From: a virus
IMG/VR virus record: IMGVR_UViG_3300043429_000348
Span: 1 to 36,582 of that record
Length of the DNA: 36,582 nucleotides
Reading direction: 5' to 3' (one strand)
The first letter of the stretch is position 1; each line of letters opens with the position of its first letter. Below, in pieces: positions 3,417-36,582 of this stretch. The notes under the pieces were generated by a model that worked only from the letters and a program-made list of their open reading frames with translations, was not told the origin of the DNA and did not search any database. The position numbers and the translations under genes were made by a program.

Positions 3417-3434
3417 CTTTTTAGCACTAAAAAG
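3417..3434. other. AT-rich palindrome at the end of the SSB gene
   Basis: CTTTTTAG and CTAAAAAG are perfect inverted arms of 8 bases separated by CA, and they cover the SSB stop codon. On the minus strand it could form a weak terminator or processing hairpin between SSB and the downstream accessory genes. The 3317-3426 gap holds nothing else clear. Confidence 0.4.
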
Positions 3435-3846
3435 GGATATCGTCATCAATATCAGACAAGTCTGCACTTGCTTTAACTGTGTCTGGTTTGCTTTGTGTGT
3501 GCTCTTTTCTGCCTTCTCCGGTGCCTCCAAGGAGTTTTATAGAGTCGGCTCTAATCTCTGTTGATTGTTTTTCTATCCCGTCTTTGTCTTGATACTTGCG
3601 AGTAACGATCTTGCCGCTTACATAGACAAGAGTGCCTTTTTTTACCCAGGTTTGGACAATTTCTGCCAGCTTTCCAAAGACGCTCACGCGATGCCATTCG
3701 GTCGCCTCGCGTTTTTCTCCTGTTGCTTTGTCCGTCCATTTTTCTGTTGTTGCGATCGAAAACGACGCTACGGTGTCGCCGTTTTGCAGGCTGCGAACGT
3801 CAGGATCGCGCCCGACGTGTCCAATAATTTGCGCTTGATTTAACAC
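3427..3846 (-). CDS. ssb: Single-stranded DNA-binding protein
   Basis: The protein has 139 residues. The N-terminal OB fold is recognisable (NQAQIIGHVGRDPDVRSLQN, then WHRVSVFGKLAEIVQTWVKKG and LVYVSGKIVTRKYQDKDG), followed by a variable linker and the classic acidic tip DIDDDIPF, which recruits replication and recombination partners. It coats single-stranded DNA, here presumably with Erf and the YqaJ nuclease encoded just upstream. The start is taken as GTG at 3846, seven bases after AAGGAGC. It overlaps the nuclease gene by 7 bases. Confidence 0.93.
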   Translation of the reverse strand: MLNQAQIIGHVGRDPDVRSLQNGDTVASFSIATTEKWTDKATGEKREATEWHRVSVFGKLAEIVQTWVKKGTLVYVSGKIVTRKYQDKDGIEKQSTEIRADSIKLLGGTGEGRKEHTQSKPDTVKASADLSDIDDDIPF

Positions 3847-4457
3847 TTGCTGCTCCTTGAATTAAGTAGTTCGACGGTTTTAGAAACTTCCGCAAGGAAA
3901 ATGCTTACAGCCTCGCTGTATTGATCAATCAATAACTGATCTCGCTCAACTCTGATGATCTCGAGCATTAAATGCTCTGGTAGGCGCGGGTCGAAGCTAA
4001 CAAAGTCAACCCATTGCCGACCCGTGCAGGCCATTTGCCATTGCATCTGAGGTATGTACTTAGACGGCGCTTTTTTGCTTGTCAGCGTCTCAATGTGCGT
4101 TTTTGTCTCTGGGCACTTGATCTCAATGAGTCCGTCATCCCCTACCAAGCCATCTGGGCTTGCACCGGCCATCGCAATAGTCGGATGGTCAACAAAGCCG
4201 ACCTCGGTCACGATTAACCCTGTTTCTGTCTCATATGCCGACCTTGCCATCGGCTCGCATTCAACACCCCATTGCATAGCAGCAGACGTAAATCCTGGCG
4301 TGCTTTTGCCTGTCAGGCGCTCGGCAACTAGATCGATGCGGTAATTGGCCCGCGCTGCGGCCTCTCCGGTTTTGATCGTTGCCAGGACATCAGATAATCG
4401 GCTTGCCGTAACTTTGCCAAGCCTAGCCGCGAACCATTCTTCGCTGCGCTGGTCCAT
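3840..4457 (-). CDS. YqaJ/lambda-exonuclease-type recombination nuclease
   Basis: The protein has 205 residues. It starts QRSEEWFAARLGKVTASRL, the typical start of the YqaJ family. The catalytic core shows GVECEPMAR, then GASPDGLV (Asp) and IEIKCPETK (E-x-K), the PD-(D/E)xK metal site. Such enzymes chew 5 prime strands of duplex ends and pass 3 prime tails to an annealing protein. Erf is encoded directly upstream with TAATG overlap and SSB directly downstream, so the three form one recombination module. Confidence 0.9.
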   Translation of the reverse strand: MDQRSEEWFAARLGKVTASRLSDVLATIKTGEAAARANYRIDLVAERLTGKSTPGFTSAAMQWGVECEPMARSAYETETGLIVTEVGFVDHPTIAMAGASPDGLVGDDGLIEIKCPETKTHIETLTSKKAPSKYIPQMQWQMACTGRQWVDFVSFDPRLPEHLMLEIIRVERDQLLIDQYSEAVSIFLAEVSKTVELLNSRSSKC

Positions 4458-5080
4458 TATTCGGCCGCCTTTTGTGCTGCTGCTTTAAGCGATGCGCCGT
4501 GTTTTTGCCAAAACGCAGCTTTTTCCGGGCTCTTTGCCAACTTTCCGAAAGCCGCTGCTAGAGCTTCTTGACCAGCTAAAGCCGCTTCGCGCAATCCAGA
4601 CAGGTGCTCTGTCTCGTATGTCTCAATATCCATAACCGGAGCACGCTGCACCACATGCGTCACGGCATCGGCATCGTTATCGCCCTCGGTCGGAATACAA
4701 AATGTCTGAAATGCCGCGTATTTATAAGCCGCCGACATTGCCTTATTTGTAGCCTTGTCTGCGCTATCCATTGCCTCGCCGTAGGTCTTAACCGTGTGCT
4801 TGCTGCCGTCGTGACTAGACACAAAGTCAAACTCAGCCTCGACAACGACCGAGAACAACACACCACCTTTAGCACTTGCACGCTCGGTCAGTTCACGCGA
4901 CAAGATGCGCGGCATGATCACTAGGCCATGCTTTGCCATAACCGGGGCCAGAGCGTTGTAAACGTCATCGATCCCACGAAATGAGTAGCCCTGCTGTTGA
5001 TTTTTGCGGCTCTTGCTAATCCCATCTTGGGCAATCTCAGCCGATACTGCTGCGATCAATTGATAAACTGTTTTGCTCAT
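4457..5080 (-). CDS. erf: ERF-family single-strand annealing recombinase
   Basis: The protein has 207 residues, near the size of P22 Erf (204). The conserved N-terminal domain includes RKNQQQGYSFRGIDDVYNAL, APVMAKHGLVIMPRIL, TYGEAMDSADKATNKAMSAA and YKYAAFQTFCIPTEG. It anneals complementary single strands and can circularise a terminally redundant phage genome after injection. The C-terminal 60 residues are Ala-rich and variable. The ATG at 5080 is preferred over the open frame upstream because it gives the usual MSKxVYQLI start. It works with the YqaJ nuclease and SSB. Confidence 0.92.
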   Translation of the reverse strand: MSKTVYQLIAAVSAEIAQDGISKSRKNQQQGYSFRGIDDVYNALAPVMAKHGLVIMPRILSRELTERASAKGGVLFSVVVEAEFDFVSSHDGSKHTVKTYGEAMDSADKATNKAMSAAYKYAAFQTFCIPTEGDNDADAVTHVVQRAPVMDIETYETEHLSGLREAALAGQEALAAAFGKLAKSPEKAAFWQKHGASLKAAAQKAAE

Positions 5081-5099
5081 GTTTGGCTCTTTTAAATAA

Positions 5100-5420
5100 T
5101 CAATCATCAAACGCTTCGTCTTGTGCCATTTCGTCAGCGTCAATAGTCGCCGACTCTTCCCAATATCCGACTATTTGGGCGTACAACATGCGACCGGCTT
5201 TTTCAAACTTTTTTGCTTTCAAAGCCTCGATTAATTCGACAACCTGGATATCATTAAAAGCTTCGAGAAAATTATCTTCGCTCCACGGGTAATGTTTTTC
5301 GCCTTCTGCCATCAGCCTTTCCCTGGCTGCAAAAAATAATCGCTCGAATTCGTCGCCAGAAAAGAAGTCTTGGCGCCGCATGTATCTTTCGAGGTCTATT
5401 GTTACCGCGCAATGTTTCAT
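5100..5420 (-). CDS. First gene of the leftward early operon, unknown function
   Basis: The protein has 106 residues and is acidic at the C-terminus (ESATIDADEMAQDEAFDD). A recognisable stretch is DDFFSGDEF-like (QDFFSGDEFERLFFAARERL) followed by ALKAKKFEKAGRMLYAQIVG. No family is assigned. It stands 19 bases upstream of erf and directly below the divergent promoter region, so it is probably the first product of leftward transcription. The Shine-Dalgarno is weak. Confidence 0.6.
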   Translation of the reverse strand: MKHCAVTIDLERYMRRQDFFSGDEFERLFFAARERLMAEGEKHYPWSEDNFLEAFNDIQVVELIEALKAKKFEKAGRMLYAQIVGYWEESATIDADEMAQDEAFDD

Positions 5421-5581: not shown

Positions 5582-5836
5582 GTGAACGAAAAAGACGAAA
5601 GCAAAGAGCACTTAAAGCGTGCAATAGATATAGCAGGCGGTTTTCAAAAATTTGGGCGGTTGATGACAGTCAATGGCCCAAAAGGTGTAACTAGGTGCTG
5701 TGTCCATTTGTGGCTTAAGCCTGGGAAAAAAGTCCCGGCTGAATACTGTCCTGATATTGAAAAAGCCACTGGTGTTCTGTGCGAACAAATCCGACCTGAT
5801 GTTAACTGGGCGGTTGTAAGGGGTGTCAAAAGTTAA
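5582..5836 (+). CDS. Cro-like (YdaS family) helix-turn-helix regulator
   Basis: The protein has 84 residues. LKRAIDIAGGFQKFGRLMTV begins the DNA-binding domain, then LWLKPGKKVPAEYCPDIEKA and TGVLCEQIRPDVNW match the end of YdaS/Cro-type domains (VPAExxxxIExATG...RPD). The loop between the helices (NGPKGVTRCCVH) is longer than usual. It probably represses the divergent early promoters. Start is GTG at 5582 after AGGGGGA. No CI-type partner repressor was found anywhere in the genome, which is unusual for a lambdoid layout. Confidence 0.8.
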   Translation: MNEKDESKEHLKRAIDIAGGFQKFGRLMTVNGPKGVTRCCVHLWLKPGKKVPAEYCPDIEKATGVLCEQIRPDVNWAVVRGVKS

Positions 5837-18901: not shown

Positions 18902-19639
18902 ATGTGGCCTCTGACGCGCCAACGTGATAGGCGAAGATTTTTTTCATTATCACGCTGGACCCCAGCCAATCTCACGTCTTATGTATGGCTTGACGCTGCG
19001 GACGCAAGCACGATTACGCTCAACGGCAGCACCGTAAGTCAGTGGGCGGACAAATCAGGAAACGGGCGCAATGCTACGCAAGTGACGACGGCGTATCAGC
19101 CGCTTTATTCTGCAACGGCAATAAACAATAAGGCGGCAATTATCACGGACGGAGTTGACGATGCTCTGTATGTCCAGTCGTGGGGCGTAATAAGCCATCC
19201 TTTTACGCGAGTGTTTGTGTTTAACCCGGTGACGATGGTTAGTAACAAGCATTATATAAACAACCAAAATGCACAACCTGGCGGGGAATTTAATGTTGCT
19301 GATCAGACAAACACATCAACAAGAATGGCGCAATATGCCGGCGCAACCGCCAACGCAGTTACTACTTCAGCGAATACTAATTACATACGCATAAGCGAGT
19401 TTGCAACAACAAATAGCCGCGTTTACACAAACGGGACGGTCACTGGACCGGCAAACTCTGGGAGTATAGGACTTAGAGGGGTGTGCATAGGAGGATATAG
19501 TCTTGATGGGAGTGGCCCGGTAGTTAATGCGTGTAATGCAAGATTTGGAGAAGTCTTAGTTATTCCCGGAGTATTAAGTACTGACAGCCGCCAGAGACTT
19601 GAAGGCTACCTAGCTTGGAAATGGAGTGGGTGGATATGA
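18902..19639 (+). CDS. LamG-like (concanavalin fold) virion protein 1
   Basis: The protein has 245 residues. SYVWLDAADASTITLNGSTV, SQWADKSGNGRNATQ, then a beta region and SRQRLEGYLAWKWSGWI are marks of the LamG-like concanavalin family; the ending LEGYLAWKW is a standard signature. Such domains often bind sugars or surfaces. The next gene is a paralogue (starts and ends alike, middle diverged), and the stop overlaps its ATG. Confidence 0.75.
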   Translation: MWPLTRQRDRRRFFSLSRWTPANLTSYVWLDAADASTITLNGSTVSQWADKSGNGRNATQVTTAYQPLYSATAINNKAAIITDGVDDALYVQSWGVISHPFTRVFVFNPVTMVSNKHYINNQNAQPGGEFNVADQTNTSTRMAQYAGATANAVTTSANTNYIRISEFATTNSRVYTNGTVTGPANSGSIGLRGVCIGGYSLDGSGPVVNACNARFGEVLVIPGVLSTDSRQRLEGYLAWKWSGWI

Positions 19640-20400
19640 GTTTAGTTCGCGAGTTACCGTACACCCACCCCTACCGTTGGGATGGTACCTTGTTTGGTGG
19701 GCCAAGGTTGTGGCGGCCAAATGATTTAGGGTCTGCGCTTGCGCTCTGGCTTGACGCTGAAGACGCGGCAAGTATCACGCTCAACGGCGCGACTGTTAGC
19801 CAATGGAGTGATAAGTCTGGCAATAATCGTAACGCAACGCAAGCAACGGCGGCCAATCAGCCGACATGGACGGCATCTGGATTAAATAATAAGCCTGTAG
19901 TGAGATTCGACGGAGCCGGGGACACCATGGTTTTCCCGCAGGTCACCACGTTGCGGACGTTTGTTGCGCTAACCAAATGGACAGATGGCTCGGGTGACTT
20001 CAGAGTTATTATCGGAGACAGTACTGATTACTACCCGTTTCACGGCGCCACGGCAATCGCTGGAACCTTATTTCATCCATATCTTACACCTCCGTCAGTA
20101 TTAAACGGAGGCAAATCAATAAATGGTGTTATGCAGGCGGCGGGATCCCTCTTGAGCAGATACATTACTCCGACAATTCATGTCTTAACCACGACTGCGC
20201 CCGTCAGTGTAAGTAGTTTTGATGATAGAAACCTTGAAAATAGAGGGTTTTTCGGCGATTACGCCGAAATGATTATTCTCGACTCCCCAGTTTCGGAGAG
20301 TGACCGCCAAAAATTAGAAGGTTACCTTGCTTGGAAGTGGGCTTTAGAAAGTTCTCTTCCCTCTGGGCATCCATACAAAAACAGGGCTCCAACACAGTAG
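19636..20400 (+). CDS. LamG-like (concanavalin fold) virion protein 2
   Basis: The protein has 254 residues from the ATG at 19636, which overlaps the upstream stop as ATGA. ALWLDAEDAASITLNGATVS, QWSDKSGNNRNATQATAANQ then ESDRQKLEGYLAWKWALESS and LPSGHPYKNRAPTQ repeat the family signature of the gene before it, with the full LPxGHPYK end that the first copy lacks. A Pro/Tyr N-terminal extension (RELPYTHPYRWDGT) differs. It may be an adhesion protein on the virion. Confidence 0.75.
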   Translation: MSLVRELPYTHPYRWDGTLFGGPRLWRPNDLGSALALWLDAEDAASITLNGATVSQWSDKSGNNRNATQATAANQPTWTASGLNNKPVVRFDGAGDTMVFPQVTTLRTFVALTKWTDGSGDFRVIIGDSTDYYPFHGATAIAGTLFHPYLTPPSVLNGGKSINGVMQAAGSLLSRYITPTIHVLTTTAPVSVSSFDDRNLENRGFFGDYAEMIILDSPVSESDRQKLEGYLAWKWALESSLPSGHPYKNRAPTQ

Positions 20401-24741: not shown

Positions 24742-26066
24742 TGGCTATCAAACCAATCAATTATGAGATTGATCAATCGCAGCCAATCCCTTTTTTAGAA
24801 GGCATGAAGGAAGGGCTACAACTGCAAGAAATACGGCAAAAACGAGAGGCCGAACTAGCAAAACAAGAACAAGAGAAGCAAAAAATCCTTGCGGAAGAAC
24901 GTCGCCAACAACTGTATCAAAGGCTTTTGTCTCCTGATGTTGCGCCAGAGGACTATAAAGCGGCGCTTCTGGTATCGGACGAAGCTAAAGCCAAGTCAAT
25001 CATGCAAATGATGGAGCAGAGCGATAAGGCAGCGAGTCGTGCGGCTATTGTTGCGTTATCTCCGGTTGTTTCGGCGCTGCACGCTGGCAATCCCGATCGT
25101 GCGATTGCTCTCTTGGAGCAACGTGGTAAAGCTTACGAGGGCCGCCCAGACGTACAAGAGGACATCCAAAACAGGATTAACCTGATTAAGGCAAGTCCTG
25201 AATCTGCCAAATTTGAGTTTGGTGGTGAGCTATCCGTTATCCCTGGCGGTTCAGATGTCCTAGGTAACATTTTGAAACTGACGGAAGAAAAGCGCGCAGA
25301 AGCAGAGGCAAAACGAACTAAATTGTCACCAGCAATTCAGGAAGCCATTGATTTCAAAAATCTATCCAAAGACGATCAGCAAGCCTTTTTATCGTTGCAA
25401 ACATTAAAACGTCCTCCTCCGGCTGTAACAAATGTCAGCGTCACTAACCTCGATAAAAGTGCGGCTACGGAGCTTGGGCAGTTAGTTCCAAAACTGTACG
25501 ATCAAGCAAATTCGGCGGCATCTCAATTAGAGCAATTACCAAGATATAGGCGTGCACTTGATTCGGCTATTACTGGGACATTTGCTGAGTCACGACTAAC
25601 TGCTGCGCGGATCGGTAATGCACTTGGATTCACTGATGACAAAGCCGCAGCAGCTTCCACTGAACTTATCCAAGGCCTTGCAGAAATGGGCTTACAGTCT
25701 AGGGGAATGATTACAGGTCAAGGGGCCATATCAAACGAAGAGCAAAAGCTACTCATTAGAGCAAGAAGCGGAGACATAAACTTAACAAAAGCAGAGTTAA
25801 ACGTAATTTTTAACGTTGCGGAACGATCCGCTAAAGCGCAATACGCAAAGTCGCGCAAATTGCTGGAGTCTGCGGCATCAAAAAGCGAAACGGCCGGCCT
25901 ATTTCTTCAGAACGTATCGCCTATGCCTGAGGATAAACCAGAGCAACCTCAAGGCATGCCGCGAGGGAGGCCTGGCGTCACCGTTACACTGCCAAACGGA
26001 CAATCGTTCGTGTTTCCTAATCAGCAAGCCGCAGATCAATTTAAAGCACGTGCGGGGGTGCGTTAA
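24741..26066 (+). CDS. Ejection protein, P22 gp20-like
   Basis: The protein has 441 residues (P22 gp20 has 471). It starts with an extended part, PINYEIDQSQPIPFLEGMKE, then a charged helix (KREAELAKQEQEKQKILAEE). The middle is helical (PEDYKAALLVSDEAKAKSIM), and LGQLVPKLYDQANSAASQLE with FTDDKAAAASTELIQGLAEM and GMITGQGAISNEEQKLLIRA near the end. The family is common in virions with internal ejection proteins. It follows the gp7-like gene with a TAATG overlap and precedes the largest ejection protein. Confidence 0.72.
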   Translation: MAIKPINYEIDQSQPIPFLEGMKEGLQLQEIRQKREAELAKQEQEKQKILAEERRQQLYQRLLSPDVAPEDYKAALLVSDEAKAKSIMQMMEQSDKAASRAAIVALSPVVSALHAGNPDRAIALLEQRGKAYEGRPDVQEDIQNRINLIKASPESAKFEFGGELSVIPGGSDVLGNILKLTEEKRAEAEAKRTKLSPAIQEAIDFKNLSKDDQQAFLSLQTLKRPPPAVTNVSVTNLDKSAATELGQLVPKLYDQANSAASQLEQLPRYRRALDSAITGTFAESRLTAARIGNALGFTDDKAAAASTELIQGLAEMGLQSRGMITGQGAISNEEQKLLIRARSGDINLTKAELNVIFNVAERSAKAQYAKSRKLLESAASKSETAGLFLQNVSPMPEDKPEQPQGMPRGRPGVTVTLPNGQSFVFPNQQAADQFKARAGVR

Positions 26067-28147
26067 TGGCGACCGACTTTGAGGCACTAGCAAAGCAGTT
26101 CGGTGGGCAGTCTGTGCAATCAGCCCAAGGCCAAGACCTTGAGGCGCTAGCGGCTCAGTTCGGTGGCAAGGCGCAACCACAGGCGCAGCCAGAAACCACG
26201 GCGGCAGGTCTTGCCGGTTCCGCTACGCGAGGGCTTGCCCCGATCGCCGCCGGTGCGGCATTAGGCGCAGCAGCAGGCGCACCGCTTGCCGGTGTCGGTG
26301 CTATCCCAGGTGCGCTGGCTGGCGCAGGAGCCGCCGGGTTGGCTCAACTGGTTGGCGATCCATTAGTTTCAGGTATCAACAGCCTATTAGGCACGCGGTA
26401 CAAAGCGCCATCGGATGCTATGGCCGACCTACTGACGCGCTTAGGCGTGCCACAAGCCGACACAGAGGCAGAGCGCATCGTGCAGTCAATCGCAGGTGGT
26501 GCTGCCGGATCGGCCGGCATAGCGGCGGGTGGTAAAGCTATACAGCAACTGGCTAGTCTAAGATCAGATGCACTTCAAAAAGTAGGCCGGTTTTTTGGTA
26601 CGTCTCCCGCATTGCAGACTATAAGCGGTGGGACGGCTGGAGGGGCTGCACAGATAGCCGCAGAGATGGGAGCAAGTCCAGGTGAGCAGCTTGCTGCCGG
26701 CCTGGTCGGCGGAATTGCGCCATCTGTTCCGGGGTTGGCAAAAGAAGGTCTTGGAGCTGCGGCAAGAGCATTGTCACCAAAAGGGTCAGATATCAGAGCA
26801 GCCACTTTGCAAACGGCAGATGGTCAAGTCCTTTTAAGGCCAAAAGAGCCAAGCGTTAAGGAATCATTACAAATAATTGGCGCCCCATTAAAAGAAAAGG
26901 CAAGGCCAGCAAAAACAGCACAAATTAGAGAAACTCTAGTCAACGACCCGGCATCGGTCGATGTTGTCAATTACCGGCTCAGCGGCAAGCAAGTACTGCC
27001 AGACAGTGACGCATCAGAAACCATAAAACAAGGGTGGAAGGATGGCGTTATTGCAGCGGTTAAGGCGGCAACTGATAGAGACCGGCAAGCAATGACCAAG
27101 ATGCTTAACATTTACAAACTTGGCAAAAAGAATGAAAAATTTAGGGCAATTAACCGTCCGGCAGACGTATTGGGTGAAAGCATCGAGAACAGAATCTCTG
27201 CTCTGAGTTCACAGCGCACATCAGCCGGTGAGATGCTAGGTCGCGTTGCGAAAGAGCAGTTAAAAGGCGCTCGAGTTGACGTGCAGCCTGCTATGAATCA
27301 GTTTTTGTCAGACCTAGCAGAAATAGGCGTCCGTGTTGAGTTTGATAATAAAGGCTTAGCCAAGGCTGTGTTGCAAGGTTCGGAAATTGAAGGGGATAAG
27401 GCTGGCCAAGAATTACTAGACATTGTGCTCAAGAGACTAAGCGCAACTGAATCGCCAGATGCCTTTAAAGTACATACAGCCAAGCGCTTTATTGACAGCC
27501 AAGTGCAATATGGCAAGAAACCACTTGCCAACCCTTTAACGGCTCAGGCAGAACGCGTTGTTAAACGTTTGCGGAAGAACCTAAATAGCACGATTGGCGA
27601 TATTAATCCCGACTACAAGGCAGCAAATGCTAGGTTTGAGGACACTACAGATGCTCTAGCTGACATTCAGAAAGCAGTGGGCACGAGTGTTAATTTTAAC
27701 GACGAAAACGCGGCTAAGGCACTCGGGACGGCAGCGCGGAAACTCACCAGCAACTATGCAAGTCGCGCCAATATGATCAGCGCGCTAGGCAAGGCCAACG
27801 AGACAGCGGCTAAATACGGCGCCAAGTTCAACGACGACATCGTTAACCAGGTCATATTTGCCAACGAACTGGATCGCATGTTTGGTGCGGCTGCCGATAC
27901 GTCACTTAAAGGCCAGATGGAGCAGGCTGCAAAGAGTGGACTCACAGCGGCAAAAGAAGCGGCTAGAGGCGGCGGTGGGCTTACAGAGCGTGCGATTAAC
28001 TTGGCTGCAATGGGCCTAGAGCGCGCCCGTGGCATCAACGAAGAAAACGCCATCAAGGCTATGGAGCAAATCTTGCGGCGCAGGTCTAATACGCCAAGCA
28101 CTAGCCGGGAAGTTGTACGATTCGCTGGAAACAGGACAAATCAATGA
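26066..28147 (+). CDS. Ejection protein, P22 gp16-like
   Basis: The protein has 693 residues (P22 gp16 has 609). The N-terminus has two copies of a short motif, DFEALAKQFGGQ and DLEALAAQFGGK. Residues about 45-100 are Gly/Ala-rich and hydrophobic (TRGLAPIAAGAALGAAAGAP, GAIPGALAGAGAAGLAQLVG), suited for insertion into a membrane during DNA ejection. The rest is helical and charged (ENRISALSSQRTSAGEMLGR, GDINPDYKAANARFEDTTDA). It is the last of the three ejection genes and overlaps the tailspike ATG by 4 bases. Confidence 0.75.
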   Translation: MATDFEALAKQFGGQSVQSAQGQDLEALAAQFGGKAQPQAQPETTAAGLAGSATRGLAPIAAGAALGAAAGAPLAGVGAIPGALAGAGAAGLAQLVGDPLVSGINSLLGTRYKAPSDAMADLLTRLGVPQADTEAERIVQSIAGGAAGSAGIAAGGKAIQQLASLRSDALQKVGRFFGTSPALQTISGGTAGGAAQIAAEMGASPGEQLAAGLVGGIAPSVPGLAKEGLGAAARALSPKGSDIRAATLQTADGQVLLRPKEPSVKESLQIIGAPLKEKARPAKTAQIRETLVNDPASVDVVNYRLSGKQVLPDSDASETIKQGWKDGVIAAVKAATDRDRQAMTKMLNIYKLGKKNEKFRAINRPADVLGESIENRISALSSQRTSAGEMLGRVAKEQLKGARVDVQPAMNQFLSDLAEIGVRVEFDNKGLAKAVLQGSEIEGDKAGQELLDIVLKRLSATESPDAFKVHTAKRFIDSQVQYGKKPLANPLTAQAERVVKRLRKNLNSTIGDINPDYKAANARFEDTTDALADIQKAVGTSVNFNDENAAKALGTAARKLTSNYASRANMISALGKANETAAKYGAKFNDDIVNQVIFANELDRMFGAAADTSLKGQMEQAAKSGLTAAKEAARGGGGLTERAINLAAMGLERARGINEENAIKAMEQILRRRSNTPSTSREVVRFAGNRTNQ

Positions 28148-30246
28148 GCGTTATTTCGAACCCCCCTTATCCGTCATATTTCGATGTTGATGGGTCTCCG
28201 CTCGAAAACGGATATTTGTATTTCGGAGCTGCCAATCAGAACCCGGAAACTAACCCAATAACTGTCTACTGGGATTCTGCGTACCTTGTTCCTGCCGCTC
28301 AGCCGATCCGGACTTCTGGAGGTTTTGCGGTACGCAACGGGTCTCCTGCAAATGTATACGTCACTACAGACTACTCTCTGACTGTTAGGGACAAAAATCT
28401 GCGCTTGGTGTATAGCAAGCTTTTGTCTGAAGGTCAGACGACCGCAGAAGTTAACATCCAATTTTCTACGCAGACGGTTATCGCAACATCTGGACAAACA
28501 GTATTTAACTTGTCCACTGCGTACACTCCCGGTAATCAGAGTCTTGCCGTGTATCACAACGGGGCAAGATTAGTAGTGGCTCAGGATTACACCGAAACAA
28601 GCGCAACGGTCGTGACGTTATTAATCGGTGCTACTGTTGGCGATGTACTTCAGTTTGTGACTGCGACACCGATTAACCCGTCAAGCTTGGGCGCGGCGGC
28701 TGTTGCATATGTTCCGGCTGGCGCTGGCGCGGTCGCCACGGATGTGCAAACCGTGTTGCGTGAGACGGTAAGCGTTACGCGTTTTGGTGCTGACAACACA
28801 GGCACGACCAACTGTTATCAGGCAGTGGAAGCTGCGTGGCAGCATTGCCTTGCAAACGGAAAAGACCTGTACTTTCCATCGGGCATTTACCGGATCACAA
28901 GCGAAAATAATTTTCCTTTTGGGCGAATTAACGGTTTGCCTCCGACATCTTTGCTGGACTGCAAAAACATCACGATCTTTGGGGATGGGCCGACGACTAT
29001 CCTTCGCACCGACACGATAAATGGCGGTGATGTCATCCAATTAAACGGTGCAAAGAACCTCCACATACGCAACTTGTACCTGACTGCAACGATCAGCGGT
29101 TCCGGCGCTGGCAGCAACGGCGTGTCGGTCACAGGCGGCTACGACAACATCACGCTCGATCACATCTGGTGCGAGAACCTGCCGTCGCTGGACAAGACAA
29201 CTTATGTAGACGGCGGCAAAGCTTTGACCATCCAGACGCCGGCTTCTGGGCAGACGGTGGTGTGCGGCACGCTAAAAGCCACCAACATCTTCGCCAAGGG
29301 GTGCGTGTACGGGTTCGGCTTTGAGCTTGATCTGGTGGCCGCATCTACGATGGACACTAGCGTTGACGTTGACATCGTGGCTGAGGATTGCCGCGAAGCG
29401 GTGATCGTTTCCGCAGGTGCTGCCACTGGCGCGATTCCGGCCAACTGGAGCATGGGCGTTCGAGTTAAGGCGCAAGCGATCAACTGCATGACGGATGTGA
29501 CTCTGGGCCGTGCCCACGGTGTTGATGTGGAGTGCCAGGTCATCACCACCAAGACACGGGCGCAGCGCATCCTGAACTACGCGGGCGTGAAATGGTTTGC
29601 TGCGGACACCGTGGCTAAAGTGGTTGGGCTGCTTGCTGCTTACGCGCACAACTGCAACGTCACGATCACCGGGAACAAAGGTGAGTGCGCGTCGATTGCA
29701 CAGATCGGCGGCATATCAACAGGCAGCAGTGGGTTAAGTGCTTCTTCGTTGAACAGCCGGTTTGAATTGGGGCTGCGTGGCACATCAGTGTCTGGCGACA
29801 TTGTGGAGATCGACGCTGGCGGCAACGTGGCTAATTCCTGCACGTTCATCTGCTACGGGTCGGGCTCGCCTTCTGCCGCGTTCTACCTCCCATCGCGCAA
29901 CAACACCATCGTTTTTGGCAACTTGCACACGCTGAAAGACTTGTCCGTGCAGGGTGCAGTGAAGTTCACCTACACAGACGGCGTGAACTCATACGGGGAG
30001 ATCAACTACGACGACGAGGCGGTGACGTTCCGACAGACGCTAGGTAGCAGTGCGAGCCTTCGCGTGGTCAAGGTTCTCAACAACTCTGGATCAACAGTGT
30101 TTGCGATGCGAAACGACGGATACTTGTCAACCGCAGGGCGAGTGACGGCAAGCGCAGTAGCAACAGTTAAAGGTGTTTTGCCGATCTACGACGAAGCCAA
30201 TGCCTTCTATGGTTACGTCCCGGTGTATACGAGCTACACGCCGTGA
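28144..30246 (+). CDS. Tailspike with P22-type head-binding domain
   Basis: The protein has 700 residues (P22 gp9 has 667). Residues 1-95 are the P22 tailspike head-binding domain: SNPPYPSYFDVDGSPLENGY, LYFGAANQNPETNPITVYWD and RNGSPANVYVTTDYSLTVRD. Residues 95-180 form an extra beta domain (FNLSTAYTPGNQSLAVYHNG). From about 208 a pectate-lyase-like beta helix follows (VTRFGADNTGTTNCYQAVEA, DLYFPSGIYRITSENNF), ending near GYVPVYTSYTP. It binds and probably degrades a host surface sugar. The DNA becomes visibly GC-richer after about 29,040, as if the receptor-binding part was exchanged. Confidence 0.85.
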   Translation: MSVISNPPYPSYFDVDGSPLENGYLYFGAANQNPETNPITVYWDSAYLVPAAQPIRTSGGFAVRNGSPANVYVTTDYSLTVRDKNLRLVYSKLLSEGQTTAEVNIQFSTQTVIATSGQTVFNLSTAYTPGNQSLAVYHNGARLVVAQDYTETSATVVTLLIGATVGDVLQFVTATPINPSSLGAAAVAYVPAGAGAVATDVQTVLRETVSVTRFGADNTGTTNCYQAVEAAWQHCLANGKDLYFPSGIYRITSENNFPFGRINGLPPTSLLDCKNITIFGDGPTTILRTDTINGGDVIQLNGAKNLHIRNLYLTATISGSGAGSNGVSVTGGYDNITLDHIWCENLPSLDKTTYVDGGKALTIQTPASGQTVVCGTLKATNIFAKGCVYGFGFELDLVAASTMDTSVDVDIVAEDCREAVIVSAGAATGAIPANWSMGVRVKAQAINCMTDVTLGRAHGVDVECQVITTKTRAQRILNYAGVKWFAADTVAKVVGLLAAYAHNCNVTITGNKGECASIAQIGGISTGSSGLSASSLNSRFELGLRGTSVSGDIVEIDAGGNVANSCTFICYGSGSPSAAFYLPSRNNTIVFGNLHTLKDLSVQGAVKFTYTDGVNSYGEINYDDEAVTFRQTLGSSASLRVVKVLNNSGSTVFAMRNDGYLSTAGRVTASAVATVKGVLPIYDEANAFYGYVPVYTSYTP

Positions 30247-30392
30247 TTTCGTAATCAAACATTTGCCGCAATCTTATTAATCTCGCCATAAACACCGATC
30301 AAATGGACTTTAAAAGCGCAAAAGCATCCAAGTATCCCCATAGATTTCGTGAAACCATATCAACAGTCGCCGCGATTATTTAAGGACAAATC
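30247..30392 (+). other. Recombination junction leftover before the second spike gene
   Basis: This 146-base stretch separates the two spike genes. It contains the 22-bp repeat copy 1 (30295-30316) in the same reading frame as in the intact gene at 32147 (DQMDFKS), followed by 20 codons of unrelated sequence and a stop at 30378-30380. It looks like the left edge of an insertion or replacement rather than a functional gene. Confidence 0.5.
30295..30316. repeat. 22-bp direct repeat, copy 1 (left edge of spike cassette)
   Basis: CCGATCAAATGGACTTTAAA plus AG is identical to bases 32151-32172. The copies flank the second receptor-binding gene and a truncated gene. Bases on either side do not match between the copies. 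Confidence 0.85.
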
Positions 30393-31985
30393 ATGACAAG
30401 AGCGCGCAACCTAGCTAACCGTGCAAGCGACACCGTATCGGTAAAAGACAGCCCATTCGGTGCTGTTGGTGACGGTGTTGCTGATGACACCGCTGCAATT
30501 GTCGCAGCGCGAGATGCGGCGAGAGCGCTTGGCGCAACGCTTCATTTTCCAACTGGAACATACGCTTTCGGAACGACCATAGATTTTGGTCAGAGCTTTG
30601 AGCGCGTTACGTTCGACGCTGGGGTGACGCTGCGCTACACCGGCACTGGTTTTGCCGTTACCCTCGACGCTGGCACGAGCGGCGGCAACTATTACGGATC
30701 GTTCGGTTGGGGCTGCCCGCCTTTGATCCAAGCCCCGAACGGCACCGTCGCGGTCTATGCCCGCGCCTGGCACCATGGGCGGCTGGACTTCGCGTGCAAT
30801 GCGGCCCTCTCGACGGCATTCCGGGTCGACTTCGCTGTGTGCTCTGAATTCCGGGTCGAGTGCTCGATCAACACCAGGCCTTGGGTCACGCGGCCAGTCA
30901 ATGGCATCCAGATCAACAAGCGCAACGCGGGCGAGTACACGACCGACTGCACGTTCATCAACCCGATCATTGAGGGTGTGAGCGGAGACGGCATCGTCGG
31001 CAACGGCTCGCAGTACAACCTGTTCTTGGGAGGCACCACTGAGGGCAACGGCGGCTCGGGCTACTCCGAGGGCCCGGAGTCGCTGCGCAATGTGCTCTTC
31101 AACGTGTTCTGTGAGGAAAACGGCGGTCGCGACTTCTACCTGGGCGGCGCGGCCACGTTCCTCTACAACTGCACGGGCGGGACGGCTGGCCATGGACTGC
31201 AGATCTTTGGCGCGCGCAACGTCATCCGAGATTGCCAGATCAAGACCATTCGCATCGAGGCCGCTGCCTCTTACAACGTGCTCGATGGCGTGGCGTTTTT
31301 CGACACTGCCAGCGGCGGCAGCTTTGTGGATCTGAGCGCCACCACGATCAAGCACAACATGCGCGCCGAGACGGTGAACGGCTACGTGAGCCTGCCGGAG
31401 TCCACGCAAAAGCCCGCCATGAAACGAGTGGGAGGCATCACGATTACCGGGGCCAGCCAGGCGGCCAAGTGCATCGTGACGATCCCTGGACATGGCTTGG
31501 AGTGGGGTGACAGCATCACCATTTCTGGCGTGGTCGGCATGACCCAGCTCAACGGCAACACCTACACCGTCGAGCCGCTGGACGGCACGAACGTCTATAT
31601 CCTGAGCGCGGGCGCCTACGTGAATTCCACCGGGTTCACGGCCTACACGAGCGGAGGGGTCGCAACCTATGTCGCCTTCCAGGACTCGTGGGTTAGCTTC
31701 GGATCGACGTTTGAACTGGCTTCGTTCTCGAAGTCTGCTGATGGCTACGTCACCTTGTCCGGCGTCGTCGCCAGCGGGGCCGGGAACACTTCGACGATCT
31801 TCACCTTGCCGGCTGGATACAGACCGGCGAAGGATCGGAACTTCGTCGTGAGCAATTCCAATAGCTTGGCGGCACATGCCGTTATTTACATCGACACCTC
31901 GGGCCGGGTTTACTTCATGTACGGCTCGGCCGCCTCGCCGCGGGCCTTCGTGTCTCTGGACAATATCCGATTCCTTGCCGCCTGA
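30393..31985 (+). CDS. Second receptor-binding protein (pectate-lyase-fold spike)
   Basis: The protein has 530 residues. It starts with a short adaptor (MTRARNLANRASDTVSVKDS) rather than a head-binding domain, then PFGAVGDGVADDTAAIVAAR and LHFPTGTYAFGTTIDFGQSF (pectate-lyase-3 type beta helix), GHGLQIFGARNVIRDCQIKT, and an inserted small domain (VTIPGHGLEWGDSITISGVV, NGNTYTVEPLDGTNVYILSA). The last 100 residues (VSFGSTFELASFSKSADGYV, FTLPAGYRPAKDRNFVVSNS) form a common terminal beta domain. The gene is visibly GC-richer than its neighbours, and it must attach through another virion protein. Confidence 0.82.
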   Translation: MTRARNLANRASDTVSVKDSPFGAVGDGVADDTAAIVAARDAARALGATLHFPTGTYAFGTTIDFGQSFERVTFDAGVTLRYTGTGFAVTLDAGTSGGNYYGSFGWGCPPLIQAPNGTVAVYARAWHHGRLDFACNAALSTAFRVDFAVCSEFRVECSINTRPWVTRPVNGIQINKRNAGEYTTDCTFINPIIEGVSGDGIVGNGSQYNLFLGGTTEGNGGSGYSEGPESLRNVLFNVFCEENGGRDFYLGGAATFLYNCTGGTAGHGLQIFGARNVIRDCQIKTIRIEAAASYNVLDGVAFFDTASGGSFVDLSATTIKHNMRAETVNGYVSLPESTQKPAMKRVGGITITGASQAAKCIVTIPGHGLEWGDSITISGVVGMTQLNGNTYTVEPLDGTNVYILSAGAYVNSTGFTAYTSGGVATYVAFQDSWVSFGSTFELASFSKSADGYVTLSGVVASGAGNTSTIFTLPAGYRPAKDRNFVVSNSNSLAAHAVIYIDTSGRVYFMYGSAASPRAFVSLDNIRFLAA

Positions 31986-32079
31986 CGGAGAAAGCATTAG
32001 ATTAAACTAAAAATTGCAGGGCGCTGACCTCAACAAACTCGCCCTTGGCGCACATCAATCTGAAAGGCTGGGCCGTTGA

Positions 32080-32169
32080 GTGACAAACGACAAGCTCCTG
32101 CACTTCGCCCTGGGCGTCATCGCTTGCCTCGCTAAATCAATCAATAATGGCCGATCAAATGGACTTTAA
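32080..32169 (+). pseudogene. Truncated DKLLHF-type (YfiM/VanZ-like) membrane protein gene
   Basis: A GTG at 32080 opens 29 codons: TNDKLLHFALGVIACLAKS, then INNGRSNGL and stop. NDKLLHFALGVIA is the recognised start of a phage membrane protein family that usually goes on for about 100 residues. Only this start remains; the reading frame passes into the sequence of the next gene at about 32130-32150, where the 22-bp repeat begins. It is therefore probably a broken remnant at the right edge of the spike cassette. Confidence 0.55.
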
Positions 32170-32377
32170 AAGTAACGAGATTGACCTAGTTAAATACGGT
32201 GCTCTATGGCAGCGAGTCCAAGAGATGGATAAAAAAATGGACAAGCTAGAGCGCAGTATTGACGAACTGTTAGCGTTGGCAAACAAGAGCAAAGGCGGGT
32301 TTTGGTTTGGAATGAGCGTTATATCTGGGCTTTCCGCCGTTCTTGGGTTTTTTCTTAGCGATGGAAGATGGTCTTGA
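32147..32377 (+). CDS. Small coiled-coil protein with C-terminal membrane segment (holin-like or XhlA-like)
   Basis: The protein has 76 residues. It begins MADQMDFKSNEIDLVKYGAL, continues with a heptad helix (VQEMDKKMDKLERSIDELLA) and ends with one membrane segment (GFWFGMSVISGLSAVLGFFL). This order, coiled coil then membrane segment, is that of XhlA-type lysis-associated proteins and of many small phage lysis proteins. Its first codons lie on the 22-bp repeat copy 2. Confidence 0.6.
   Translation: MADQMDFKSNEIDLVKYGALWQRVQEMDKKMDKLERSIDELLALANKSKGGFWFGMSVISGLSAVLGFFLSDGRWS
32151..32172. repeat. 22-bp direct repeat, copy 2 (right edge of spike cassette)
   Basis: This is identical to 30295-30316 and lies within the first codons of the gene at 32147 (DQMDFKS). 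The copies are 1,856 bases apart, start to start. Confidence 0.85.
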
Positions 32378-32403
32378 GCCACTCTTTTGTGCTGTAAAAG
32401 CGC

Positions 32404-32469
32404 CGAAAGGCACTAGCGCGCAGTAACAAACATGCGTTATCGTTCGTGCATGCGCGAATAGTGCTTTCG
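32404..32469. other. Long imperfect hairpin in the lysis region
   Basis: CGAAAG (32404-32409), CACTA (32411-32415) and CGCGCA (32417-32422) pair with TGCGCG (32451-32456), TAGTG (32459-32463) and CTTTCG (32464-32469): 17 base pairs interrupted by one bulged G and a 1x2 internal loop. The 28-base loop contains TAAC..GTTA. No T-run follows, so it is not a normal terminator. It fills most of the 112-base gap 32378-32489. Confidence 0.6.
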
Positions 32470-32489
32470 AATACTTGGGGGTTGTTTTT

Positions 32490-32933
32490 ATGGCGGATGA
32501 GGATATATCTTCGTTTGCGTTGCTTGCTCTGAGAAAGACGGACCCAAAGGGATTTTTCCCGAAGTTATTCTCTAGGCTCACTCGGCTTCGCTTGATGACA
32601 CGATACCCGCATGGCGGGATAGTTGTTGACGGAGTTTTGTATCACGCCACATTCAAAAATCAGTTGAATTGCGAAGATTTCAACCCAGAGGGATGGGACT
32701 TGTTTCATGTCCCAGTAAATCGAAATGTCGTCCTTCTGCGGTTTTTCAGGTCATACGGTGCAAAATACGACTGGATTTCGTTGTTGGCTTTTATAGTCCC
32801 GTGGCGAGTGTCAATGTCTGAATGGTTTTACTGTTACGAGTGGTGCTGGTTTGCTTTGACCGGAGAAATGCCGAAACGACGTATTACACCAGAAGATTTG
32901 CTTACTCTGTCAGGTGGTCGGTATGGTAACTAA
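32490..32933 (+). CDS. Papain-like (permuted NlpC/P60) hydrolase candidate
   Basis: The protein has 147 residues. The region RYPHGGIVVDGVLYHATFKN carries a His (H41) in a small beta part, and SEWFYCYEWCWFALTG carries Cys115 (and Cys119) on a helix; this H-before-C order is that of the circularly permuted NlpC/P60 (YiiX-like) family. NPEGWDLFHVP and GAKYDWISLLAF are other typical family signs. It may cleave peptidoglycan or another amide bond. ATG at 32490 is preferred to TTG 15 bases upstream. Location in the lysis set supports a cell-wall role. Confidence 0.55.
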   Translation: MADEDISSFALLALRKTDPKGFFPKLFSRLTRLRLMTRYPHGGIVVDGVLYHATFKNQLNCEDFNPEGWDLFHVPVNRNVVLLRFFRSYGAKYDWISLLAFIVPWRVSMSEWFYCYEWCWFALTGEMPKRRITPEDLLTLSGGRYGN

Positions 32934-33252
32934 ACAACAAGAAAAGCCGGTAGCGTGCGGACCGTGGACATGGTTTGTCGAGAAGGTTTTACCCGGTCTT
33001 TTTGTCGCTCTTACCTTGTCAGTCATCGCAACATCTGTTGCAATGTGGCAGAGTGTGGCAAGGATTACAGCAAGTCTTGAGAGCCATCAAGAGCAGATCG
33101 CAGACTTAAGACAGGAAGTCAAGCTTGTCAGGGAGCAGGCTGTAATGCGGTCTGAGTTATTGGAGACCTTAAAGCGCGTGGAGCAGCAGCTACATATTGC
33201 TTTACTTGAAGCAAGACTTAATGCCAAAAACTCAATCAAATTGACAAAATGA
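32923..33252 (+). CDS. Inner membrane spanin candidate (Rz-like)
   Basis: The protein has 109 residues. One N-terminal membrane segment (LPGLFVALTLSVIATSVAMW) is followed by a long coiled coil (ASLESHQEQIADLRQEVKLV, LLETLKRVEQQLHIALLEAR) that would lie in the periplasm, the shape of an i-spanin. No outer-membrane partner (Rz1-like lipoprotein) was found. A holin-associated protein is possible. ATG at 32923 follows AGGTGG. The stop and endolysin start overlap by 4 bases. Confidence 0.5.
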   Translation: MVTKQQEKPVACGPWTWFVEKVLPGLFVALTLSVIATSVAMWQSVARITASLESHQEQIADLRQEVKLVREQAVMRSELLETLKRVEQQLHIALLEARLNAKNSIKLTK

Positions 33253-33704
33253 GACTATCAAAGCACTTCACGCTTGATGAGATGATTGCATCACAGTATG
33301 CGACAAGGCACGGTATAAACAACCTCCCTAACGTCGATGTGATTGCAAACTTAGAGCGTCTTTGCCTTGATTACTTAGAGCCGTTGAGAGCCATCGTCAA
33401 CGCCCCAATCATTGTGTCTAGTGGATACCGTTCACCAGCGCTTAATAAAGCTATTGGCGGATCAATGAGCAGCGCTCACATGGTTGGGTTAGCTGTTGAC
33501 TTATCTGTGCCGGGGATGTCAGTCTATGACGTGTGCAAACGTGCGGCTCTTGTCATCCCGCACTTTGATCAAATCATTGACGAGTTCAAATCTTGGGTGC
33601 ATCTGTCAATTACTAATAAAACCATTAAGCCACGCCGCCAACATTTGCAAGCGCGAAGAGATAAAAACGGGTCTGTAACTTATAGCGCGGCGTCTTTTGT
33701 ATAG
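33249..33704 (+). CDS. Endolysin, peptidase M15 family
   Basis: The protein has 151 residues. KHFTLDEMIASQYATRHGIN starts an M15_3-type domain; SSGYRSPALNKAIGGSMSSA then HMVGLAVDLSVP and SWVHLS carry the zinc ligands H77, D84 and H118. Such enzymes cut the peptide stems of peptidoglycan (D,D or L,D-carboxypeptidase-type). There is no signal peptide, so release depends on the holin encoded next. It lies between the spanin candidate and the holin. Confidence 0.9.
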   Translation: MRLSKHFTLDEMIASQYATRHGINNLPNVDVIANLERLCLDYLEPLRAIVNAPIIVSSGYRSPALNKAIGGSMSSAHMVGLAVDLSVPGMSVYDVCKRAALVIPHFDQIIDEFKSWVHLSITNKTIKPRRQHLQARRDKNGSVTYSAASFV

Positions 33705-33713
33705 GGTGGTCAT

Positions 33714-33887
33714 ATGAATCCAGTAATTATTGCAAGCCTTGTCCGTCACGTGCTGACTGGGTTGGGTGGTGTGTTCGCTGCTAAATACGGGGTTGATGGG
33801 GAGACTTTGGACGGTGTTATTGGCGCTGTATCAACGATCATCGGGTTCGGGTGGTCTGTATACGACAAGCGCCAGTTAGATAAATAA
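33714..33887 (+). CDS. Small holin candidate (Pam3-gp28-like)
   Basis: The protein has 57 residues: NPVIIASLVRHVLTGLGGVF, then AAKYGVDGETLDGVIGAVST and IIGFGWSVYDKRQLDK. The pattern VRHxLTxxGG, then a short loop and IGAVxxxxGxxWSVxxKRQ matches a small phage holin family, with two amphipathic or membrane segments. It would permeabilise the inner membrane to release the endolysin. It is the last gene of the rightward unit. Confidence 0.75.
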   Translation: MNPVIIASLVRHVLTGLGGVFAAKYGVDGETLDGVIGAVSTIIGFGWSVYDKRQLDK

Positions 33888-33891
33888 GATG

Positions 33892-33945
33892 AAAAAATTG
33901 AAGGCGTTTTTGTCAAGGGTTTTTAACTTGACTAAACGCCTTCAA
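33892..33945 (-). terminator. Terminator of the leftward operon at the convergence point
   Basis: TTGAAGGCGTTT (33898-33909) and AAACGCCTTCAA (33934-33945) are perfect 12-bp arms, with inner TCAAG/CTTGA pairs (33913-33917/33927-33931). Read on the minus strand the stem is followed by TTTTTT (33892-33897), so it ends leftward transcription coming from the gene at 33962. On the plus strand there is no T-run, so rightward termination is weaker. Confidence 0.75.
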
Positions 33946-33961
33946 AAGCTTGATTGATTTA

Positions 33962-34192
33962 CTAATCAAGACATTCAACATTCTTTAGCCTTGCTTGAAT
34001 CTCTATAGTTCTCGCTGCGTCGCGTAGTTTTGACGGGTTTGTCTTTGAGAATACTTTTAACGCAATTGCTATAAAGGTTTCAATCTCGGCCCAAGCTCTC
34101 TCGTCGGTTTGCGCTGCTATTGGTCGCAGTCGATCAACTGCTGACACTATGTCGGCAGCGATCTCCGAAATGTCGGTGCGGGATTGCCTCAT
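33962..34192 (-). CDS. Small helical protein, last gene of the leftward operon
   Basis: The protein has 76 residues. SRTDISEIAADIVSAVDRLR, then RAWAEIETFIAIALKVFSKT and LRDAARTIEIQARLKNVECL. It is helical and neutral to slightly basic. I assign no family. CGGAG stands before the ATG at 34192. The terminator follows at 33945. Confidence 0.55.
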   Translation of the reverse strand: MRQSRTDISEIAADIVSAVDRLRPIAAQTDERAWAEIETFIAIALKVFSKTNPSKLRDAARTIEIQARLKNVECLD

Positions 34193-34210
34193 TTTTGCGC
34201 TCCGGTTGGG

Positions 34211-34332
34211 TTACTTAATCCGCACTGCGTTTTCGGTTGGTGCTGGTCGAGTCACGTTGCGCAGATTGTCGAACGACACGCGTGCGGTCTCCACAAGCTG
34301 CCAACCGTGGGTGCGTTGTGATTAGTGTCCAT
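34211..34332 (-). pseudogene. Partial duplicate of the gene at 34607-34813 (decayed)
   Basis: The minus strand codes VETARVSFDNLRNVTRPAPT and ENAVRIK-stop (34294 to 34211), nearly the same as the end of the gene at 34607-34813 (VEHVTLDKLRNVTRPAPT, HNAVRIK-stop). An ATG at 34332 with GAGATCGAG upstream opens MDTNHNAPTVGS in another frame and stops at 34252, so a frameshift would be needed to join the two parts. It is a decayed or rearranged tandem copy. Confidence 0.55.
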
Positions 34333-34595: not shown

Positions 34596-34606
34596 CTCGA
34601 TCCTCG

Positions 34607-34813
34607 TTATTTAATCCGCACCGCGTTGTGTGTCGGGGCTGGCCGCGTCACGTTGCGCAGTTTGTCGAGCGTGACGTGCTCGACCAGAATCTCCGACGCA
34701 ATCGGCTTGAGCGCATCGAGCAGTGGGGCGGCCTCTTTGATTGGCACAGTCTGACAATGCAATTTAGGCTCAGCACACGGCGGGGCGTTGTAGCGGTAGA
34801 AAACGTTGATCAT
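34607..34813 (-). CDS. Small hypothetical protein with a duplicated end
   Basis: The protein has 68 residues. MINVFYRYNAPPCAEPKLHC, then ALKPIASEILVEHVTLDKLR and NVTRPAPTHNAVRIK. The last 27 residues recur with changes downstream at 34211-34294. No family recognised. AAGAG lies upstream of the ATG at 34813. The 98 bases between this gene and 34912 contain no clear gene. Confidence 0.55.
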   Translation of the reverse strand: MINVFYRYNAPPCAEPKLHCQTVPIKEAAPLLDALKPIASEILVEHVTLDKLRNVTRPAPTHNAVRIK

Positions 34814-35625: not shown

Positions 35626-35858
35626 GCTTTACCCCTTGCTCGGATTGCGGCGGCGCACCAAGTTGCCAATACATCTTCGCCTTCATATTCAACGTCAATG
35701 TCGTCACACACCTTCGCACACGCTTCACGCTCGGCAGCGGCGACAAGGGCGGCGAAGCGTTCAAGTCGGTGCATGTCTCCGGTGCCGGGCAAGTTGTCCA
35801 ATGCCATGCTCGGCCACCCAGCCTCCCGCGCCATGCGAATGATTTCATCGCGTGTCAT
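35622..35858 (-). CDS. Common small phage accessory protein
   Basis: The protein has 78 residues. TRDEIIRMAREAGWPSMALD, then RLERFAALVAAAEREACAKV and DVLATWCAAAIRARGKA. The core ERFAALVAAAEREACAKVCD and AAAIRARG is one of the most frequent small proteins in phage early regions and still has no known role. Its start overlaps the end of the Gly/Tyr gene by 14 bases. Confidence 0.75.
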   Translation of the reverse strand: MTRDEIIRMAREAGWPSMALDNLPGTGDMHRLERFAALVAAAEREACAKVCDDIDVEYEGEDVLATWCAAAIRARGKA

Positions 35859-36255
35859 TTCTGCCTCGGGTCCTTAAATTACAGCTCACATTACCGTTGC
35901 CGTTGCCGTAGCCGTTGCCGTAGAAGTTGCCGCAGCCGTCGCCGTAGCCGTATCCGTCGCCGTTGCCGCCGCCGTAGACGTTGCCGTAGCCGTATCCGTC
36001 GCCATAGCCGTCGCCGTAGACGTTGCCGTAGCCGTAGCCGTTGCCGTAGCCGTTGCTGTAGCCGTAGCCGTAGCCGTAGCCGTAGCCGTTGCTGTAGCCG
36101 TTGCTGTAGCCGTTGCCGTAGCCGTTGCCGTAGCCGTAGCCGGCGCCGTAGCCGTTGCCGTAGCCGTAGTCGGCGCCGTATCCGTCGCCGTAGCCGTAGC
36201 CGTATCCGTCGACGCCTTTGACGCCGCCGCCGCCGTAGCCTATTGGTTTAAACAT
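35845..36255 (-). CDS. Glycine-tyrosine low-complexity repeat protein
   Basis: The protein has 136 residues. After MFKPIGYGGGGVKGVDGYGY the sequence is almost only G, Y, N, D and S in YGNGYGNGYSNGYGYG units up to residue 120, then a short end with one Cys (NVSCNLRTRGRNDTR). The DNA is a run of 6- and 12-base units (GCCGTAGCCGTT). The start forms a TGATG overlap with the stop of the gene before it, and the end overlaps the next gene, so this frame is the coding one. It is probably disordered; the role is unknown. Confidence 0.65.
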   Translation of the reverse strand: MFKPIGYGGGGVKGVDGYGYGYGDGYGADYGYGNGYGAGYGYGNGYGNGYSNGYSNGYGYGYGYGYSNGYGNGYGYGNVYGDGYGDGYGYGNVYGGGNGDGYGYGDGCGNFYGNGYGNGNGNVSCNLRTRGRNDTR

Positions 36256-36578
36256 CAGGCACCCCAGTCGTCTGACACGGGCACGCAGAAAATCTCGGCG
36301 CCCTCTGGGATATCAACGCCATTCGGCATTGGCTTAAGTGTCAATTTGGGCGATTTTGGATTTGCAATTACTCCGTCGAATCCAATACTTTCCCAGCGGA
36401 ATACGTGTACAGCTCGATCTAATTTGATGCGTCCATTTTCACGAGTCACATCCCCGGCAAAAATCCATCCTCGATCCACGACCACGACGGCTCGCGATCC
36501 TTTAATTTGCTGTTTAACTTGATCGGCTTTGACATACTCGATACCGTTGATAGTGATTGTGTTCACTTGCGCTTCCAT
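36255..36578 (-). CDS. Small conserved phage protein near the contig join
   Basis: The protein has 107 residues. NTITINGIEYVKADQVKQQI, then SRAVVVVDRGWIFAGDVTRE and HVFRWESIGFDGVIANPKSP then AEIFCVPVSDDWGA. The layout (ITINGxEYV, VVVxxxGxxxGxV, W, then an I-P-x-x-E end) matches a small phage protein family of unknown role that I recall as similar to DUF6948. Its SD (AAGGA) is found only when the contig ends are joined. Confidence 0.65.
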   Translation of the reverse strand: MEAQVNTITINGIEYVKADQVKQQIKGSRAVVVVDRGWIFAGDVTRENGRIKLDRAVHVFRWESIGFDGVIANPKSPKLTLKPMPNGVDIPEGAEIFCVPVSDDWGA

Positions 36579-36582
36579 TGTT
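36558..36582. repeat. Terminal direct repeat, right copy
   Basis: This is identical to bases 1-25. It contains the first codons of the gene at 36255-36578. Joining the copies gives a continuous leftward operon from 5.4 kb across the join to 33.9 kb. Confidence 0.9.

Follow-up and report, generated by a model that had tools for sequence, protein, structure and literature searches.

Probable gain of a second tail spike gene at the start of a neighbouring gene in a metagenomic phage

How does a phage come to carry a second tail spike gene between its first spike gene and its lysis-side genes, and what do the two copies of a 22-bp sequence that bound the extra segment record? The locus considered here lies on a metagenome contig, IMGVR_UViG_3300043429_000348, positions 1 to 36,582, referred to as the window. 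Positions 1-25 are identical to 36558-36582, a 25-bp terminal overlap in the pattern of circular metagenome contigs, and the window is probably a complete, circular-looking phage genome of ~36.56 kb. Its portal is of the P22/APSE type. The gene order at the locus is first spike (SP1), second spike (SP2), a 76-aa gene, genes of 152 aa and 112 aa, an M15 endolysin, and a holin. The relative used for comparison is the IMG/VR contig IMGVR_UViG_3300017785_003768, called L002 here (L163 is the same contig). The features of the locus are as follows.

28144..30246, plus strand: SP1, first tail spike, 700 aa (PF12708; pectate-lyase-like domain, virion-binding N-terminal part)
28264..28623, plus strand: apparently exchanged segment of SP1, aa ~41-160 (DNA identity to L002 ~0.5-0.7; flanks 0.93-1.0)
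30295..30316, plus strand: repeat copy 1, read as the duplicated start (MDFKS) of the downstream gene and the left border of the insertion
30303-30383, plus strand: stump open reading frame (ORF) MDFKSAKASKYPHRFRETISTVAAII, then a stop; in-frame run-on of copy 1
30317..32150, plus strand: putative inserted segment between the repeat copies, 1834 bp, not in L002
30393..31985, plus strand: SP2, second tail spike, 530 aa (PF12708, PF16190; phrog_18522, phrog_3285)
32080..32169, plus strand: 29-codon ORF VTNDKLLHFALGVIACLAKSINNGRSNGL, from GTG 32080 to TAA 32167-32169
32081..32132, plus strand: 52-bp segment, 94% (49/52) identical to the DNA directly behind the second spike of phage L162
32147..32377, plus strand: 76-aa coiled-coil/membrane gene, HSBP1-like below the Pfam cut-off; lineage-native start read as ATG 32159
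32151..32172, plus strand: repeat copy 2, start of the intact downstream gene, read as the right border of the insertion

The 22-bp repeat and the 76-aa gene

The 22-mer CCGATCAAATGGACTTTAAAAG is exact at both positions, and the first-pass annotation, which had reported exact direct repeats flanking the segment, had its coordinates right. No longer exact direct repeat occurs in 2721-35830, i.e., outside the low-complexity arrays; in 60 dinucleotide-based randomisations the longest repeat never exceeded 17 bp and averaged 14.5. A common motif of lysis regions was ruled out as its identity. With up to four mismatches allowed, the 22-mer is absent elsewhere in 3.37 Mb of fetched related loci, except once in L002, and an exact search of IMG/VR gave no match.

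The repeat is best read as a second copy of the 5' end of the 76-aa gene, which lies downstream, and not as a conserved motif, because the L002 gene starts at an ATG inside the repeat (MDFKSNEIDLVKYG, 72 aa) and the N-terminus before EIDLVKYG varies among relatives. The gene was described at first as intact from 32147, with copy 2 forming part of it. That ORF is present, but judged by L002 the native start is ATG 32159; the ATG at 32147 lies in inserted DNA and is in frame by chance. An ancestral MADQ start was accordingly ruled out, since all relatives vary at the N-terminus and the L002 protein begins with MDFKS. The gene has 157 relatives among the IMG/VR candidates, L002 being the closest, and is conserved at the DNA level across many phages. 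The N-terminal codons in the repeat are particular to the window/L002 lineage.

Copy 1 runs on in the frame of the gene into foreign sequence, as originally proposed, giving a stump of 26 codons. Its stop, at 30381-30383, overlaps a Shine–Dalgarno-like AAGGA ahead of SP2.

A third phage, L003, has a window-like backbone (~95-97%) with a wholly different multi-gene spike module (L003:622-4712). The join lies in the 5' portion of the 76-aa gene, which indicates that the start of this gene serves as a module border in general.

The empty site in L002 and the extra segment

Window positions 25936-30316 align with L002 at 92.4% identity and 32151-34228 at 98.4%. In L002 these matches share exactly the 22 bp, and the remainder of the insert is missing. 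Joining the window flanks without 30317-32172 and aligning them to L002 gives 635 identical positions of 644, with zero gaps. The single 22-mer of L002 carries one substitution (CCGATCCAATGG). A two-spike layout with both repeats is thus not common to all relatives, and a genome with one copy and no second spike, such as the annotation had suggested looking for, exists; L002 is the one empty-site genome found. With one copy and no second spike in L002, the SP2 segment is a discrete presence/absence cassette, which sets the window apart from a near-identical relative with exact junctions and a 22-bp duplication that covers the start and first codons of the 76-aa gene.

The first spike also differs between the two genomes. 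SP1 is 94% identical in L002, and its N-terminus is common to many anchored spikes of related phages. The difference is concentrated in a sharp-edged homologous replacement of ~360 bp in the adaptor part, the remaining SP1 being ~99% identical. For this segment (28264-28623) the L002 allele is nearer the outgroup L165 and the window allele farther from it; on these sequences the swap is placed in the window lineage. A Pfam-only search of SP1 gave no T4gp10-like docking domain. A second patch of divergence from L002, at 27200-27800, falls within a 693-aa gene upstream of SP1.

The extra segment contains a complete receptor-binding gene, as had been claimed from the sequence. Its product, SP2, has a pectate-lyase-like domain (PF12708; the beta-helix match is sub-threshold) and an E1_FCCH-like domain (PF16190). 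The C-terminal tail-fibre region resembles minor tail proteins (phrog_3285), and the best PHROG match is the tail protein family 18522. SP2 begins with 14 residues followed by a VSVKD motif from residue 15 and lacks a virion-binding N-terminal domain. Anchorless second spikes of this kind occur in other fetched phages (L162 and L288); INPHARED queries for further ones returned none. By analogy with other two-spike phages, the short N-terminus of SP2 may dock on the tail hub or on the first spike, and SP2 may recognise or cleave a different surface sugar, as KP32-type second spikes do. A second host specificity is therefore plausible. Against solved structures, the SP2 sequence gave only weak pectate-lyase/epimerase and E1-domain matches, and a single-sequence AlphaFold model was unusable (pLDDT 33).

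The segment between the repeats is also GC-richer, in agreement with the annotation. SP2 has 60.9% GC compared with 54.2% for SP1, 46.6% for the lysis side, and 51.7% for the whole window, and its GC3 is 0.76 as against 0.40-0.65 in nine other genes. The contrast is a graded one, because GC is just 42% in the first 76 bp of the insert and as high as 58% in parts of SP1.

At the right end of the insert, the annotation had seen the stump of a membrane protein gene. The 29-codon ORF is there, and it may or may not be the remnant of a membrane-protein gene. The counterpart in L162 stops at the same base as the 52-bp segment and forms a complete ORF of 20 codons there, and the search for a full-length 'LLHFALGVIACLA' gene gave only this 20-codon ORF in L162. 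Similarity to L162 stops 18 bp before copy 2. L162 is an unrelated phage whose portal and terminase differ from those of the window, and the 52 bp that the two have in common show that borders of spike cassettes can move between unrelated phages.

No donor of SP2 was found in IMG/VR, GTDB species genomes, or INPHARED, the 52-bp right-end segment being the only part matched; close relatives of SP2 were absent from IMG/VR and GTDB species genomes, and INPHARED gave domain-level matches only. The annotation had found no transposase, and Pfam or PHROGs scans of ~23 window proteins detected none. Within the insert there is no transposase, integrase, homing nuclease, or other recombinase gene, and its ends show no terminal inverted repeats and not even a 7-mer in common.

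Routes to a second spike

The reading preferred here is that a second, anchorless pectate-lyase-type spike was probably acquired at the 5' end of the 76-aa gene, with the start of that gene duplicated and the gene left intact. A recombinational gain of the second spike is well supported. Recombination where the 76-aa gene begins would have placed a foreign segment with SP2 between SP1 and the lysis-side genes. A truncated copy of the gene start would then lie ahead of SP2 and an intact start behind it, so that no gene of the phage would have been lost. Annealing or template switching during co-infection, as illegitimate or short-homology recombination, is the likely route. The agents could have been the phage's own ERF/YqaJ/SSB set or host enzymes, with no part for a transposase or site-specific recombinase. 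The window phage encodes NinB and NinG and, likewise, the following recombination genes.

3427..5143, minus strand: recombination genes overall (PF00436, PF09588, PF04404)
3427-3846, minus strand: SSB (PF00436)
3840-4457, minus strand: YqaJ exonuclease (PF09588)
4457-5143, minus strand: ERF annealing protein (PF04404)

Divergent from these genes, 5432-5836 encodes a YdaS-type protein (PF15943), probably a Cro-like regulator.

Recombination between diverged sequences has been demonstrated for an Erf-family recombinase, and mosaicism at short homologies is driven by Rad52-like recombinases (PMC3945230). The window is comparable to Rad52-like (Red-beta/Erf/Sak) mosaicism in encoding an ERF-family protein with an exonuclease and SSB. 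It shares only 22 bp at the junction and the donor was not found, so we infer the involvement of the recombinase here. The minimum quoted for Red-beta is ~30 bp (PMC3945230). Since 22 bp falls below this, the event may not have depended on homology at the repeat. The 22-mer is explained equally well by a duplication that arose during insertion. The original idea of a cassette gained by recombination at a short homology stands as to the discrete cassette, given L002, with homology at the 22-mer as one possible driver.

The direction of the event is informed by two sister phages, L165 and L168, which have one spike with the lysis-side genes within 50 bp. L165 shows 77% identity in the upstream protein and, over the first 306 residues of its spike, 64%. 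This single-spike layout favours gain in the window; since the first lysis-side gene of the two phages differs, it is support and not proof, and gain rather than loss is, on the sequence comparison, likewise supported but not proven. Loss would require that the two-spike layout is ancestral and that L002 dropped the cassette by recombination between the 22-bp copies. The one copy left in L002 is the exact product of such a deletion, and L003, with the same backbone, has several spike-module genes at this place as well. This course of events is nevertheless unlikely, given the single spikes of L165 and L168 and the foreign composition of SP2, and an ancestral state with two copies would still require an earlier duplication of the gene start.

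The confidences attached to the various explanations are not mutually exclusive, since unequal homologous recombination is a variant of the main one. It would involve a donor with SP2 ahead of its own 76-aa gene, so that the repeat represents the starts of the recipient and donor genes. The conservation of the 76-aa gene at the DNA level among many phages would make such an exchange feasible. The stump before the second spike in L288 (MNLVHHDELA, then a stop) is unlike the start of its own downstream gene (MTSSHNEEL) and has CACCACGACGAACTG, in the same codon register, in common with the L239 gene; this mismatch fits unequal exchange because the stump and the intact gene are then expected to come from different parents. 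In the window, however, a donor tract is not visible rightward of copy 2, with ~98% identity to L002 on both sides; the N-terminal codons of the repeat are specific to the window/L002 lineage; and the DNA immediately to the left of copy 2 comes from a different gene border. The lack of a visible donor tract slightly favours duplication by illegitimate joining, and unequal exchange appears a rather doubtful account of this locus. A transposable or homing cassette with target-site duplication would explain a precise insertion between direct repeats, but the missing mobility genes and terminal inverted repeats noted above, together with the absence of other copies of the insert from the collections searched, leave this explanation largely refuted and most improbable. 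Only slightly more credence is due to an assembly artefact, i.e., a chimeric contig joined at the repeat. The window is a metagenome contig known without reads, and its terminal overlap is only 25 bp; yet one false join at a 22-mer cannot insert a fragment with the same 22-mer at both ends, both spikes are complete ORFs, and the right flank is intact.

Recurrence and known spike systems

Gain at a duplicated gene start, as preferred for the window, might also occur elsewhere. Spike genes in other phages were scanned for upstream copies of the start region of the next gene, with a criterion set after the first cases had been seen. Start-copy scores of at least 15 were obtained for 8 of 99 spikes and 3 of 1228 other long ORFs (Fisher p 1e-7, uncorrected for relatedness; p 7e-4 with four collapsed events). 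Two of the three control positives are in fact L237-family spikes; the third is repetitive. The eight positive spikes include whole-gene or shared-start cases (L292, L273). The clean cases fall into three lineages: the window; L239 (stump MTSPHH..., 19 bp exact, with the first copy at the contig end) together with L288, whose stump is degenerate; and L237/L246/L262/L291, with a stump MSANIKAS... that, in the three examined base by base, shares an overlapping ATGA between its stop and the start of the spike. The pattern does not hold generally, since it was seen in 0 of 11 spikes in 13 loci of named phages. A search for literature reporting spike genes between direct repeats found none. Recurrence of start duplication is thus an exploratory lead, not a rule. 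It is possible, though only tentatively proposed, that in a range of environmental phages the first codons of the gene behind the existing spike are a recurrent entry point for extra spikes, each leaving a translated stump of that gene in front of it. If so, the old gene is kept, the new spike can get a ready-made translation signal, and a duplicated gene start becomes a marker of spike gain.

Other repeats at spike borders were also observed. Tandem spike genes are present in L237, L246, L262, L291, and L273, bordered by copies of the leader (A)AACTATGAGCGCAAACATTAAAGC with stumps MSANIKAS ending in a stop. L294 instead has a 58-bp copy of the 3' end of a spike gene on both sides.

Phage "moron" insertions place an extra gene of foreign composition between two genes of conserved order. 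SP2 is like them in composition and placement. Unlike a moron, it encodes a structural protein and runs in line with the adjacent genes, and no promoter or terminator signals were found for the insert above randomised expectation.

KP32-type Klebsiella phages are divided into a two-spike (anchor-branched) group A and a single-spike group B (PMC6872550). As in group A, the window has an anchored first spike and an anchorless second spike with a short N-terminus, the second gene lies between the first spike and the lysis genes (the holin gene in KP32), and related phages carry one or two spikes. The window phage differs in belonging to another phage family, and no docking domain or conserved peptide was identified in it; KP32, unlike the window, has no copy of the holin-gene start ahead of its second spike. 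Receptor-binding genes are also known to be exchanged between unrelated phages at short conserved boundary stretches (PMC10408124; boundary-sequence recombination, PMC6466182). The window resembles these exchanges in a putative recombination at short stretches adjoining the gene. It differs in adding a whole spike rather than replacing one, and in having as its border the duplicated start of the next gene, which is lineage-specific and not conserved.

Two-spike phages and spike mosaicism are therefore already known, and what is useful here is a near-isogenic pair together with the start-duplication signature. According to the main study of two-spike Klebsiella phages, heavy gene exchange has obscured the direction in which such systems evolved (PMC6872550). 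The window and L002, with base-exact junctions, offer a before-and-after view of the probable gain of a second spike, a step that is directly testable. The pair lends itself to work on the target of SP2, on its docking on SP1, whose adaptor segment was apparently swapped too, and on duplicated gene starts as marks of recent spike gains in other phages.

Several further repeats were observed in the window. A 215-aa ORF at 2340-2987 (minus strand) contains degenerate Ala/Trp/Asp-rich 12-bp tandem units (WDAANAAARAA), and a 136-aa ORF at 35845-36255 (minus strand) is made up nearly entirely of GYGNGYGYG-type repeats and differs in length in L002 and L003. The segment 34210-34280 is repeated directly at 34606-34676 (71 bp, 82%), and in L002 and L003 the DNA between these copies seems to be missing or rearranged. 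The adjacent ORFs at 18902-19639 and 19615-20400 are paralogous, with VWLDAADASTITLNGSTVSQWADKSGNGRNATQ common to both and no Pfam match, and are possibly lectin-like virion decorations.
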